NCBI GenBank assembly: GCA_031262985.1
Contig: JAISGQ010000018.1
Coordinates: 62,001-126,000 of the forward strand
Length of the DNA stretch: 64,000 nucleotides
Reading direction: 5' to 3'
DNA from: Oscillospiraceae bacterium
GTDB taxonomy: Bacteria; Bacillota; Clostridia; Oscillospirales; Acutalibacteraceae
Below the pieces are notes generated by a model. The model was not told where the DNA came from. It saw nothing but the letters and a program-made list of their open reading frames with translations, and did not search any database. The position numbers and the translations under genes are program-made. Positions 4,853 to 64,000 of the stretch are shown in pieces. Position 1 is the stretch's first letter. The number at the start of each line of letters is the position of its first letter.

Positions 4853-7359
<2,507 letters not shown>

Positions 7360-23999: not shown

Positions 24000-24092
24000 G
24001 TGATGTCATTCCTTTCAAAATATATTTGGGAATGGTCGTTTGCGCCTGTTTCCCTGCCGCGTCCTTCCCGTTCGCTGAAAATTATTCATAAA

Positions 24093-24226
24093 GTAGGTCG
24101 CAAGGCGACCTACACAGGGAACCCCCGACGAGGGTCCCTGCCCCTTCACTGCGTTTTTCTGACGATAAGGGGATTTTAAATTAACTTAGAAAACCTCACT
24201 TTGCCTCCTTGGCAACAAATTTTAAT
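24093..24226 (-). repeat. Multi-hairpin repeat family 1, copy a (deleted variant)
   Basis: Shares GTAGGTCGC..GCGACCTAC, GGGAACCCCCGACGAGGG, CTGCGTTTTTCTGACGATA and TTGGCAACAAATTTTA with copies b-e; abuts the gdpP-like stop codon. Confidence 0.9.
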
Positions 24227-32343: not shown

Positions 32344-32447
32344 TCTGCCGTTTTTTTACTGTTTTGCATATTTTTCTATTTAACTATTGCAAAGTGGAGT
32401 AAAAAGGTATATATTTAAGTTAAAGTAGGTGGAGGGATTCGCTGATG

Positions 32448-32662
32448 CTAAAATCTGTTGCCAAAGAGTTAAAGTTTAGGTCAAGCCTTTCCAAAGGCTT
32501 GCAGGTTCTTAGGACAGCGTCCTAAGTCGCTCTCCGCAGAGAGCGAAACACCCTTATCGTCAGAAAAACGCAGGAGGGGTAGGAAAAAATGTCCCTAAGG
32601 ACATTTTTTCCGTAGGGGAACCCTCGTCGGGGGTTCCCCTGTGTAGGTCGCCTGCGACCTAC
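32448..32662 (+). repeat. Multi-hairpin repeat family 1, copy b
   Basis: Six consecutive perfect hairpins (stems 8-13 bp) flanked by 9-bp direct repeat CTAAAATCT (32448-32456, 32668-32676). Confidence 0.93.
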
Positions 32663-34381: not shown

Positions 34382-34665
34382 CTAAAATCTGTTGCCAAGG
34401 AGTTAGAATTTGGGTCAAGCCTTTGCAAAGGCTTGCATGGTTCACATTCTAAATTAACTAACAAAACAATGCAAGAAAAGCCTAAAAAGTCATATGTGAA
34501 ATTTTTTCGTGCTTTTCTTTGTTGTTTTCTAAGTTAATTTAGAATCGGACAGAGTCTTAAGTCGCTCTCCGCAGAGAGCGAAACTCTTTTATCGTCAGAA
34601 AAACGCAGTGAGGGAGCATGGACCCCTCGTCGGGGGTTCCCTGTGTAGGTCGCCTTGCGACCTAC
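34382..34665 (+). repeat. Multi-hairpin repeat family 1, copy c (interrupted by a palindromic insert)
   Basis: Same end sequences as copies b/d/e; begins 7 nt after the nifU stop; lacks the TGTCCCTAAGGACA hairpin. Confidence 0.9.
34446..34545. mobile_element. 100-bp near-palindromic MITE-like insert nested in repeat copy c
   Basis: Perfect 14-bp terminal inverted repeats ATTCTAAATTAACT/AGTTAATTTAGAAT; interior also largely complementary. Confidence 0.7.
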
Positions 34666-34762
34666 TTATTATTTATACTGATAACCAATTAAAATATCTA
34701 TGCCTTTATAAAATTTTCGTCATATATAGTATCAGTTATTACCGAACGGAGTAGTTTATCAT

Positions 34763-43377: not shown

Positions 43378-43415
43378 CATAAAAAAGCAAGCACATAAAA
43401 TCTGTCGCCGACTTT

Positions 43416-43548
43416 TCTCCTCTCTCATCCGGACTGTACCGTCGGCTCGGGAATCACACCCAAATCAGTGGCAAACGCACTCGCGGGCTAACGAAAAGCT
43501 TCGCATTACCGCCGGTGGGGAATCGCACCCCGCCCTGAGGATTTATCT
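43416..43548 (-). promoter_or_regulatory. FMN riboswitch (RFN element)
   Basis: Minus strand ATCCTCAGGGCGGGGTGCGATTCCCCACCGGCGGTAA...AGCCCGCGAG...TGATTCCCGAGCCGACGGTACAGTCCGGATGAGAGAGGA. Confidence 0.97.
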
Positions 43549-60667: not shown

Positions 60668-61957
60668 CTACATCTCTCCTACCATGTCAATTATACTCCC
60701 CCTGAGTTCTCCCGCAAGGTAGAGTGAGCCGCAAATGAGCACCGCCTCGTCCTCCTTGCAGCTGCCTATCGCGTAGGAGAGAGCCGTGTGCTTATCCTCA
60801 AACCGCTCAGCAGGGACAAAGCGGGAGCATAGCCGACATAGCTCCTCCTCGCTCATCGCTCTCGGATTGTCGGGAGAAACGGCGAGTATTTTCATAAAAT
60901 GAGGAGTGAGGATGGAGAGCGTCTTCTCCACATCTTTATCCCTGAGCATCCCCATAATCGCCGTGATTTTCACATCGGGGAGCAGTCTGGTGAGAGTATC
61001 AGACAGTGCTTTCGCTCCGTTCGGGTTGTGAGTGCCGTCTAAAATTACGAGCGGACGCCTTGACATAATCTCAAATCTCGCAGGGAAGCGGGCGGCGGCT
61101 ACTCCTTCGAGAATCGCGCTGTCATCTATCAACACCGATTTTCCTCTCAGCACATCCACGGCGGAAAGCACAGTTGCGAGGTTCTCCGCCTGATACCTTC
61201 CGGCAAGGGGGAGAAATATCCGCTTGCCGGAGTAGGCAACCTCCGTCCCCTCTATTGATTCAAAGATTATGTCAACCGAATCGGCGGAGCAGAAGTGTAT
61301 CGCACTGCCCTTCTCCTTCGCCGTTGATTGGAGGACGGAAACTACCTCCTCCTTTTGATTTGCAGCGACTACGACATCGCATCCGCACTTGATAATACCG
61401 GCTTTCTCATACGCAATTTTCGCGTATGTATCGCCTAATATGTCGGTGTGATCGAGTGCGATTCGCGTTATCACGGAGCAGAGGGGGGATTTTATGATGT
61501 TTGTCGCGTCAAACCGTCCTCCCAGCCCTGTTTCGAGAACCACGAGGTCGCACTGCTCCTTGGCGAAGTAGGAGAACGCCGCCGCTGTTATCAGCTCGAA
61601 CTCGGTTATCACGAGGGACTGCTCCTCCATTTGATTTACAAGCGGGAGGAGGTGGTCAATCTGCTCGGCGAAGCTCTGTTTCGGAATCATACTGCCGTTT
61701 ACACTTATTCTCTCTCTGAAATCGGAGATATACGGGGAGATGTACAACCCCGTTTTGTACCCTGCCGCTTGGAGTATGGAGGCGAGCATGGCGGCGGTAC
61801 TCCCCTTGCCGTTAGTTCCGGCTATGTGGATGAATTTGAGTTTATCCTGAGGGTTTCGGAGCATTGCCATAAGCTGCTCAATTCGCTCTAAGCCGGGTTT
61901 TATACCGAATTTAAGTCTGTCGCTCACAAACTGCCGCGACTGCTCATATGAAAGCAT
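60668..61957 (-). CDS. folC: Folylpolyglutamate/dihydrofolate synthase
   Basis: IHIAGTNGKGSTAAMLASILQAAGYKTGLYISPYI; LDGTHNPNGAKAL. Confidence 0.96.
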   Translation of the reverse strand: MLSYEQSRQFVSDRLKFGIKPGLERIEQLMAMLRNPQDKLKFIHIAGTNGKGSTAAMLASILQAAGYKTGLYISPYISDFRERISVNGSMIPKQSFAEQIDHLLPLVNQMEEQSLVITEFELITAAAFSYFAKEQCDLVVLETGLGGRFDATNIIKSPLCSVITRIALDHTDILGDTYAKIAYEKAGIIKCGCDVVVAANQKEEVVSVLQSTAKEKGSAIHFCSADSVDIIFESIEGTEVAYSGKRIFLPLAGRYQAENLATVLSAVDVLRGKSVLIDDSAILEGVAAARFPARFEIMSRRPLVILDGTHNPNGAKALSDTLTRLLPDVKITAIMGMLRDKDVEKTLSILTPHFMKILAVSPDNPRAMSEEELCRLCSRFVPAERFEDKHTALSYAIGSCKEDEAVLICGSLYLAGELRGSIIDMVGEM

Positions 61958-62024
61958 ATTGTTTCCTCCAAATTACAAACTGTTGACGGAAAACTGCCTA
62001 TTAAAGCATATTACCTACAAATTA

Positions 62025-62237
62025 CAATCTGTTGCCAAGGAGGCAAAAGTTTAGGTCAAGCCTTTTCAAAGGCTTGCAGGTTCTTAGGACGGCGTCCTAA
62101 GTCGCCCTCCGCAGAGGGTGAAATCTTTTATCGTCAGAAAAACGCAGGAGGGGTAGGGAGAAATGTCCCTAAGGACATTTCTCCCGTAGGGGAACCCTCG
62201 TCGGGGGTTCCCCTGTGTAGGTCGCCTTGCGACCTAC
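62025..62237 (+). repeat. Multi-hairpin repeat family 1, copy d
   Basis: Same module order as copy b, with compensatory stem differences. Confidence 0.93.
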
Positions 62238-62278
62238 TTCTTGCTAATACTAACATCTTGTTGATTAGTGTTAAACTT

Positions 62279-62311
62279 ATAGGGTTTTGCCGCGTTGCGG
62301 CAAAACCCTAT
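62279..62311. repeat. Perfect 15-bp hairpin between repeat copies d and e
   Basis: ATAGGGTTTTGCCGC-gtt-GCGGCAAAACCCTAT. Confidence 0.9.
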
Positions 62312-62357
62312 AAAGATGTGCCAACAGATTATAACTCCATGAAGGAGTTAGTAATAA

Positions 62358-62569
62358 GTAGGTCGCAAGGCGACCTACACAGGGAACCCCCGACGAGGGT
62401 TCCCTACGGAGAAAATGTCCTTAGGGACATTTTCTCCTACCTTCCTGCGTTTTCTGACGCTAAAAGAGTTTCGCCATCTGCGGATGGCGAGTCAGGGCTC
62501 TGCCCTAACAACCCGCAAGCCTTTACAAAGGCTTGACCCAAATTCTAACTCCTTGGCAACAGATTTTAG
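62358..62569 (-). repeat. Multi-hairpin repeat family 1, copy e (inverted relative to d)
   Basis: Reverse complement has the full module order; starts 17 nt after the valS stop in valS sense. Confidence 0.93.
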
Positions 62570-62586: not shown

Positions 62587-64000
62587 TTACTTCTCAAAAG
62601 CGGCGATACTCTCGAGTATAATCGCCTTCTTCTCCTCCGCCTTTTTGAGCTTCGCGCGCTCCGCCTCTATTACAGCGGCAGGAGCTTTCGCAGTAAAGCC
62701 CACGTTAGAAAGCTTTCCGTTTATCATAGAGAGGTCCTTCTCCACCTTCTCTAAGTCCTTCCTCAGACGCTCCTTCTCCTTCTCGGCATCGACAAGCTCG
62801 TCCATAGGAATCATTATCTTCGCTCCGTCCGAAACGATAGTAACTGCCGATTCCATGCTGTCAAACTTCGCGCCTACCGTCACCTTGCTCGCGGAGGCGA
62901 GACGCTCCACAAATGTGGCGGCTCTCGCAAAGCTCTCCTCATACGCAGTCTCTATAAAAACCTGCGCCTTCTTTGAGGGAGGTACGTTCATCTCGCTTCT
63001 CCTGTTGCGGATTGCCTTAATAGCCGACATAATCCGCTCCATCTCGGCGGTCTCCTCGGAGAAGTCCCATTCCCCCCTGAACTCAGGCCAGCGGGAGGTC
63101 ATTATCGTGTCGCCCTCATGCGGTATGGTAAGGAATATCTCCTCCGTGATAAACGGCATGAAGGGGTGAAGCAGCTTTAGGATATTGGTCAGCACGAATA
63201 TCAGCACCGACTGTGCGTCCTTCGAGGTCTGCCCGCCCTTGTTGAGGCGGATTTTCGCAAGCTCAATGTACCAGTCGCAGTAGCAGTCCCAGATGAAGTC
63301 GTACAGCTTCTGCACTGCCACGCCGAGGTCGAAGTTCTCTAAATTATCCGTTACTTCCTTCGCGAGTATGTTGAGCTTCGAGATAATCCACTTGTCCTCC
63401 GTCTCAAGATTTTCGGGAGCTGCCGGCATATCGTCGCTCTCGAGATTCATCAGAACGAACCGTGTCGCGTTCCACAGCTTATTTGCGAAGTTTCGGCAAG
63501 CCTCCACCTTCTTGTCGCTGTAGCGCATATCGCTTCCCGGGCTTACGCCTGTAGTAAGGGAGAACCTGAGCGAATCCGCGCCGAACTTATCTATTACAAC
63601 GAGCGGGTCTACTCCGTTGCCAAGTGACTTGCTCATCTTCCTGCCCTGCTCATCCCTTATGATGCCGTGGATGAACACAGTGTCAAAGGGTACTTGCTTT
63701 GTCTGCTCAATCCCCGAGAATATCATACGCGCCACCCAGAAGAAGATTATGTCGTAGCCTGTGACCAGCGTGTTTGTCGGGTAGAAGAAATCGAAATCAT
63801 CCGATTTCGAAGGCCATCCGAGCGTGGAGAACGGCCACAGCGCGGAGGAAAACCAAGTGTCGAGCGTGTCCTCGTCCTGCCGTAGATTCGTACTGCCGCA
63901 TTTCGGACAAACCGAGGGAGTAGTTCTCGAAACGATAACCTCCCCGCAGTCGGAGCAGTACCACACGGGAATCCTGTGTCCCCACCAGAGCTGACGAGAA
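62587..64000 (-). CDS. valS: Valyl-tRNA synthetase (partial; N-terminus beyond right edge)
   Basis: SSALWWGHRIPVWYCSDCG upstream of the track start, KMSKSLGNGVDPLVVIDKFGADSLRFSL; C-terminal coiled coil. Confidence 0.96.
   Translation of the reverse strand, partial: SRQLWWGHRIPVWYCSDCGEVIVSRTTPSVCPKCGSTNLRQDEDTLDTWFSSALWPFSTLGWPSKSDDFDFFYPTNTLVTGYDIIFFWVARMIFSGIEQTKQVPFDTVFIHGIIRDEQGRKMSKSLGNGVDPLVVIDKFGADSLRFSLTTGVSPGSDMRYSDKKVEACRNFANKLWNATRFVLMNLESDDMPAAPENLETEDKWIISKLNILAKEVTDNLENFDLGVAVQKLYDFIWDCYCDWYIELAKIRLNKGGQTSKDAQSVLIFVLTNILKLLHPFMPFITEEIFLTIPHEGDTIMTSRWPEFRGEWDFSEETAEMERIMSAIKAIRNRRSEMNVPPSKKAQVFIETAYEESFARAATFVERLASASKVTVGAKFDSMESAVTIVSDGAKIMIPMDELVDAEKEKERLRKDLEKVEKDLSMINGKLSNVGFTAKAPAAVIEAERAKLKKAEEKKAIILESIAAFEK

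Follow-up and report, generated by a model that had tools for sequence, protein, structure and literature searches.

An intergenic multi-hairpin repeat of an Oscillospiraceae genome with covarying candidate third strands for two fold-back DNA triplexes

The window—a stretch of 64,000 nucleotides, corresponding to bases 62001–126000 of contig 6 in an assembly of 1.96 Mb with 79% completeness—carries a chain of hairpins on its plus strand, referred to here as copy b of a repeat family. All six hairpins that an earlier, sequence-only reading had described are located inside 32448–32662, with no others. The module order in this genome is a leader with ACTNNAATCTGTTGCCAAGGAG, the segment AGTTTAGGT, hairpin 1, the segment CAGGTT, hairpins 2 and 3, a junction with TATCGTCAGAAAAACGCAGG, and hairpins 4–6. 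The parts of copy b are:

32445–32472, plus strand: 5′ leader (CTAAAATCTGTTGCCAAAGAGTTAA), from the alignment of copies, most of which begin with the conserved ACTNNAATCTGTTGCCAAGGAG
32473–32481, plus strand: third strand 1 (AGTTTAGGT), a putative fold-back strand lying along hairpin 1 with T.A-T triads in class IV order; columns 2 and 21 covary (G-C/A-T), and the T-tract equals the A-tract in length across genera
32482–32501, plus strand: hairpin 1, CAAGCCTTT-CC-AAAGGCTTG, with both-side changes in 9 of 9 pairs across genera
32502–32507, plus strand: third strand 2 (CAGGTT), proposed as the reverse-Hoogsteen strand of hairpin 2 in class I order; columns 32 and 34 covary with the stem pairs 43-49 and 41-51, with a fixed mirror code in 44 pairs from 19 genera
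32508–32526, plus strand: hairpin 2, CTTAGGAC-AGC-GTCCTAAG, from alignment and covariation of copies
32527–32546, plus strand: hairpin 3, TCGCTCTC-CGCA-GAGAGCGA, from alignment and covariation of copies
32547–32581, plus strand: junction with the conserved TATCGTCAGAAAAACGCAGG, between hairpins 3 and 4
32582–32611, plus strand: hairpin 4, GGAAAAAATGTCC-CTAA-GGACATTTTTTCC, in which pairs 113-140 and 116-137 covary
32613–32641, plus strand: hairpin 5, TAGGGGAACCCTCGTCGGGGGTTCCCCTG; other genera keep the same CTCG-CGG loop region
32643–32662, plus strand: hairpin 6, GTAGGTCGCCTGCGACCTAC, from direct inspection and the alignment of copies

A putative CCC..GGG clamp around the TATCGTCAGAAAAACGCAGG junction (helix 4) is weakly supported, by a both-side change in one pair. 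The 3′ end comes in two subtypes in this genome—...GTGTAGGTCGCC..GCGACCTACTTA and ...GTATAGGTCGCC..GCGACCTATAGGGCATCCCCGTTAGG—the second of which adds a further conserved tail. This subtype II tail, GGGCATCCCCGTTAGGAAAACT...TGCGTAGGTTACTGAGAGCAGAGTNAG, is conserved in L040, L044, L049, L050, L061, and L066, and several contig ends coincide with it. An extra leader (ACTNCAATCTGTTGNCAAGGAG) stands ~32 bases upstream in several subtype II copies (L040, L049, L056, L058, and L061), and solitary leader-like sequences are found 3′ of copy e (62325–62345) and 3′ of L045.

Five copies had been counted from the sequence of the window, which is too low for the family: the copies in its own genome number at least 53, scattered and for the most part intergenic. 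This number combines 42 nearly full-length BLAST copies with 11 further places among the 19 best covariance-model matches. The BLAST search with b (40 of 140 candidates scored) gave at least 42 nearly full-length copies at 87–96% identity; since many contigs end inside copies, the true copy number is probably higher. Copies d and e lie where they had been placed before. Both are of full length, and a and c turn out to be interrupted by another, fold-back insert:

62022–62239 (core 62048–62236), plus strand: copy d, full length, from the alignment of copies
62349–62569 (core 62359–62544), minus strand: copy e, full length and inverted relative to d, from the alignment of copies
34382–34669, plus strand: copy c, in two parts (34382–34443 and 34547–34669) split by the ~105-base fold-back insert (~34443–34546)
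about 24091–24223, minus strand: copy a, without hairpins 1–3, carrying one end of the insert of copy c

Copies d and e stand in opposite orientation, 110 bases apart, between the minus-strand ORFs 60668–61957 and 62587–63966, and a long perfect hairpin (TATAGGGTTTTGCCGC-GTT-GCGGCAAAACCCTATA) lies between them at 62277–62316. The ~105-base insert, with the ends ATTCTAAATTAAC...GTTAATTTAGAAT, interrupts copy c at 34443–34546 and has left a remnant in copy a (~24170–24192); it resembles a separate MITE-like element with the b-family repeat as its target.

The stem changes quoted earlier between copies b, d, and e are real and paired. Hairpin 2 occurs with the stems GGAC/GTCC, GGGC/GCCC, AAGAC/GTCTT, and GGGT/ACCC; hairpin 3 with CTC/GAG, CAT/ATG, CCC/GGG, and ACC/GGT; and hairpin 4 with several variants. 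Of the two loops described as invariant, CGCA is so in this genome and CTAA is not, as 6 of 43 copies have CGCT, CGCC, or CCAA. Within these 43 same-genome copies, 99.5% of the consensus-structure cells are paired and both-side changes occur in 13 pairs, while shuffling of the 3′ partners never reached the observed pairing or covariation score (0 of 500). Pairs 60-71, 37-55, 43-49, and 116-137 lie above all values from 50 alignments that were simulated along a tree built from the copies themselves. Across genera (93 sequences, 25 pairs), the stems are paired in 98.3% of cells compared with 73.6% after shuffling, in an alignment (A3) that follows the structure of the model and is biased toward it, the raw sequences being directly readable. 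Both-side changes are found in 24 of these 25 pairs, and sliding the partners by one to three columns lowers the pairing to at most 52%. Between genera, the stem letters are almost entirely different, with order and lengths preserved, and the loop CCGCAG and the module order are conserved across 26 genera. The view of a new-looking, non-coding family selected as folded RNA or single-stranded DNA is hence supported, as the covariation beats the tree-based null and is very strong across genera.

Paired stem changes alone could also stem from template-switch correction of imperfect palindromes. An explanation built on this process would dispense with functional selection altogether: quasipalindrome correction keeps the hairpins perfect and gene conversion homogenizes the copies. 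It would fit the nearly mismatch-free stems, the few haplotypes common to many copies in the genome, and the differing inserts that orthologous sites hold between species, but not the constancy of the CCGCAG loop and of the module order over 26 genera. It is also opposed by the behavior of the flanks, described below.

Among the 248 genomes of the order that were sampled, the model of hairpins 1–3 matches 38, distributed over 26 of 127 genera and at least 10 families. Among 349 genomes drawn from the phylum there is no match outside the order, the only carriers besides the window's genome being two from the same order. Copy number reaches a maximum of 68 in one genome (G127), whose 10 contigs bear 33 copies on the plus and 35 on the minus strand; as a plain strand count in this genome, there is no replication-strand bias. 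Likewise, 12 versus 16 codirectional cases—a rough figure from simple ORF calls—reveal no gene-orientation preference. One genus carries mainly inward-facing inverted pairs 200–460 bases apart, which resemble d and e. In L171 (G147), 20 kb hold ~10 copies, most of them in inward-facing inverted pairs, and at two places in G127 (L172, 832–1527 and 9051–9740) the module ends a ~700-base hairpin chain rich in further palindromes. At orthologous intergenic sites, species that are 91–96% identical carry differing inserts, and the sites compared among same-genus genomes include no clean empty site for the b family. Another interspersed repeat, ~210 bases long (AGCAGTGGCGAGTC...), does offer a filled/empty pair: L169 carries it at 5265–5476 (G183), and it is missing at the orthologous L173 (G067). 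At a site orthologous to a G183 copy, L175 (G067:C20, 25017–25713) holds a 177-base unit three times in tandem at a spacing of 260 bases. Phage and plasmid collections gave no match to the b family; two IMG/VR contigs (L186 and L187) contain the exact pattern of hairpin 1 plus third strand. Exact matches of the 19-mer TATCGTCAGAAAAACGCAG in a Butyrivibrio MAG and a Methylophilaceae MAG were dismissed as chance, given the unrelated sequence around them.

The repeat might be related to REP/RAYT or IS200/IS605 as a non-autonomous element that a Y1 (HUH) transposase mobilizes in single-stranded form; the hairpin-rich, intergenic copies, their inverted pairs, the lack of a target duplication, and a fold of single-stranded DNA would suit this, but Y1_Tnp is missing from the 79%-complete genome of the window as well as from 9 of 14 further carriers—hence from 10 of the 15 tested—and the carriers without it include genomes listed as 99–100% complete with up to 68 copies. 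A requirement for the Y1 transposase is thereby largely refuted, and we regard this origin as very unlikely, a diverged HUH enzyme under the Pfam cut-off being possible. An even smaller probability is given to a classical MITE driven by a DDE transposase. The b family is short, non-coding, and present in many copies, as for a MITE, and intergenic repeats are seen to be gained and lost between species; yet 34 copies display neither a terminal inverted repeat spanning the element nor a target-site duplication, and among genera the arm sequences vary while the internal folds persist. In the carriers searched, neither a mobility mechanism nor a companion enzyme was found.

Covariation is not confined to the stems. 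In the 43 copies, three sets of columns that involve non-stem positions covary as strongly as true pairs do—columns 2 and 21, 34 and 41/51, and 32 and 43/49—which, taken alone and in one genome, is below the ceiling of the tree-simulated null. The latter two link identical purines in mirror register (A with A-T, G with G-C), and hence no antiparallel pairing yields them. In three related genera retrieved by BLAST, the pattern can be seen by eye; in one of them (G023), AGGGGT precedes GGGGA stems and TGGGGT precedes GGGGC stems. For a cross-genus comparison, a 77-position model of hairpins 1–3 was made from three genera, and loci were then gathered from many. Third strand 2 was compared with the 5′ stem strand in one fixed register for 44 distinct six/eight-base pairs, about 10 of which were entered by hand (stem mismatch) and several others of which had the boundary between stem and flank re-set manually.

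At the four inner positions, a reverse-Hoogsteen code (G.G-C, A.A-T, T.A-T) fits in 91.5%, compared with 65.0 ± 2.9% for third strands permuted among the stems; none of 20,000 permutations reached the observed value, where, copies within a genus being related, permutation values are not exact probabilities. The two central positions (g4-s5 and g5-s4) show G.G, A.A, or T.A in 44 of 44 pairs, and position g2 obeys the code less strictly (32 of 44). With one pair per genus (19 genera), the central positions fit in 100%, compared with 51.5% when permuted. Direct-repeat and shifted-register arrangements were rejected for their lower fit than the fixed mirror register, other mirror registers giving at most 54% and direct ones at most 59%. 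A T of the third strand stands opposite a stem A in 21 of 23 cases at g5 and in 4 of 14 at g4. Since such a T is no copy of the stem, copying cannot explain third strand 2; and since it is unfit for a pyrimidine motif on the complement, the code argues for the strand as written. The same T opposite A, together with the haplotype AGATT/AAGAC, rejects the alternative that the flank of hairpin 2 pairs in antiparallel fashion. Template switching yields inverted or direct repeats, and neither mirror-register matches nor T opposite A; template-switch correction cannot produce the third-strand covariation. We hence rate an origin of the family free of functional selection as quite improbable.

The arrangement at hairpin 2 is that of a class I intrastrand triplex: along one DNA strand, the reverse-Hoogsteen segment comes 5′, followed by the purine strand and the pyrimidine strand, and the class I triads—G.G-C, A.A-T, and T.A-T only, in antiparallel register—account for 91.5% overall. 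Hairpin 1 follows class IV, in which the Hoogsteen segment comes 5′, then the pyrimidine and the purine strand, and in which the third strand of the T.A-T and C+.G-C triads has the same direction as the purine strand: the tracts match in length, and a C or G stands opposite the C-G below. T-tract and A-tract are of equal length in 83% of 72 combinations, compared with 34 ± 5% when permuted, and in G016, another of the three genera from BLAST, the T-tract before hairpin 1 has 4, 5, or 6 letters, tracking the A-tract in 7 of 7. This length matching could alternatively arise from strand exchange by ordinary antiparallel pairing.

The choice between folded RNA and folded single-stranded DNA had been left open by the sequence-only reading, which overlooked the covariation between flank and groove; this signal points to DNA. 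Purine-motif triplexes reportedly cannot form in RNA, while pyrimidine-motif ones can (PMC4666352), so that the purine code at hairpin 2 would have the conserved fold read as single-stranded DNA. Selection as a structured RNA—a terminator, a stabilizer, or a mobile RNA, with a U.A-U triple at hairpin 1 and some other explanation for the flank contacts of hairpin 2—is accordingly weakened by the same code, which does not form in RNA (PMC4666352). It would account for the strong stem covariation, parallel U.A-U triples do exist in RNA, and some genera have a T run after the last hairpin; on the other side, this genome lacks such a run, and the copies show no orientation preference relative to neighboring genes. 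The frequency of G-U wobbles fails to discriminate RNA from DNA, whether counted on conserved helices or by single-sequence folding: G-U pairs make up 1.3% of conserved-helix cells in the element and 2.5% in FMN riboswitches from that order, so that they are not much rarer in the element, and this use of wobbles is compatible with RNA. An RNA relative is not found in Rfam, where no family matches b, scores staying below the gathering threshold, and a permissive threshold brings up noise only; the sole Rfam match of the window is an FMN riboswitch at 43413–43546 on the minus strand. Overall, we consider the RNA explanation unlikely.

Given what is established—copy number, intergenic scatter in both orientations, covariation of the stems and of the third strand in fixed register, restriction to one order, and turnover between species—the explanation we favor, and hold to be probable, is a non-coding interspersed DNA repeat in which one strand folds into the conserved unit: two fold-back triplexes in tandem, followed by a lineage-variable chain of hairpins. 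In the first module, a G-T3..6-(C/G)G segment would lie along the A-tract side of hairpin 1, forming T.A-T and C/G.G-C triads in the parallel, class IV manner. In the second, a six-base segment of G, A, and T would accompany the purine strand of hairpin 2 in antiparallel orientation, with G.G-C, A.A-T, and T.A-T triads, as in class I. Both third segments stand directly 5′ of their own hairpins, and by folding back they would thus come to lie in the groove at mirror register. The purine side of hairpin 1 is the 3′ strand, which makes its third strand parallel; that of hairpin 2 is the 5′ strand, which makes it antiparallel. We infer that the third strands really form, in DNA, and that they might do so upon exposure of the single strand, e.g., on the lagging-strand template or in negatively supercoiled intergenic DNA. 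Folded hairpins 1 and 2 would then be a compact node of single-stranded DNA beside further hairpins. This structured strand may be what spreads or gets recognized, and the element may persist as a hitchhiker that some single-strand machinery copies or moves; a role for the host, e.g., in binding a protein, is just as conceivable. Locally, polymerases could be stalled and rearrangements promoted, effects that have been reported for TM_ECO (PMC4666352).

Intrastrand triplex repeats as a kind are already known, and four classes of intrastrand triplexes, including the class I and IV orders, have been described (PMC4666352). TM_ECO, BoxC, and PIT are potential intrastrand triplex elements of Escherichia coli and other proteobacteria (Hoyne, Maher and co-workers; Holder et al. 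2015, PMC4666352). Like the b family, they are short and intergenic, show no strand bias, sometimes form inverted pairs, differ in copy number between close relatives, and have one DNA strand able to fold as a purine-motif triplex. TM_ECO itself is a single 37-base class II motif of nearly fixed sequence from 262 proteobacterial genomes, with the C-rich strand first, the third strand 3′, and 9 triads. The b family, in contrast, belongs to another bacterial group and combines class IV and then class I modules in tandem, with third strands 5′, in a multi-hairpin repeat of genus-variable sequence with compensatory third-strand changes; its predicted triplexes are short, at 4–7 triads each. The class II pattern of TM_ECO/BoxC/PIT proper (CCCTCNCCCN3-6GGGNGAGGGN3GGGNGAGGG) is missing from the b-family copies. 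The repeat is best filed as a new multi-module form of the PIT/BoxC/TM_ECO kind. REP/BIME elements with RAYT (Y1) are likewise intergenic hairpin repeats with inverted pairs and genome-specific families, from which the b family differs by several chained hairpins plus third strands and by the lack of Y1 in 10 of 15 carriers. To our knowledge, REPs have no triplex feature, and we know of no third-strand code for BOX. BOX and RUP of Streptococcus pneumoniae (PMC3049150) and similar small interspersed repeats likewise are non-coding, have a modular build and a structure, and belong to a Gram-positive genome; the b family lacks any Rfam match. For Clostridia or Faecalibacterium, literature searches on repeats with triplexes or hairpins returned nothing relevant, and no description was found of a module that joins class IV and class I in tandem, of covarying third strands, or of the b family in Clostridia-like genomes—a weak absence, as subscription papers were thinly covered.

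The broader proposition—that a whole bacterial order bears genome-wide repeats under continuous selection for tandem intrastrand triplexes on one strand, one parallel with T.A-T and one antiparallel with G, A, and T—is put forward tentatively, at slightly less than an even chance. If true, this would be among the first cases in which covariation, beyond motif matching, demonstrates DNA triplexes as structures selected in vivo, and a dedicated protein or process that recognizes triplexes would be implied. Whether DNA triplexes form and are selected in cells is an old open question, so far approached by motif counts and in vitro work. Three strands that covary in register over 19 genera provide an evolutionary test independent of motif searches, and the family supplies natural mutants of each triad together with a short testable sequence. 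More generally, the flanks of hairpin repeats can carry tertiary covariation beyond what Watson–Crick covariance models represent. Finders of the ITxF type would mostly miss such modules with their limit of six triads: third strand 2 and hairpin 2 would form 4–7 triads depending on the copy, and by this count many copies would fall under that minimum.
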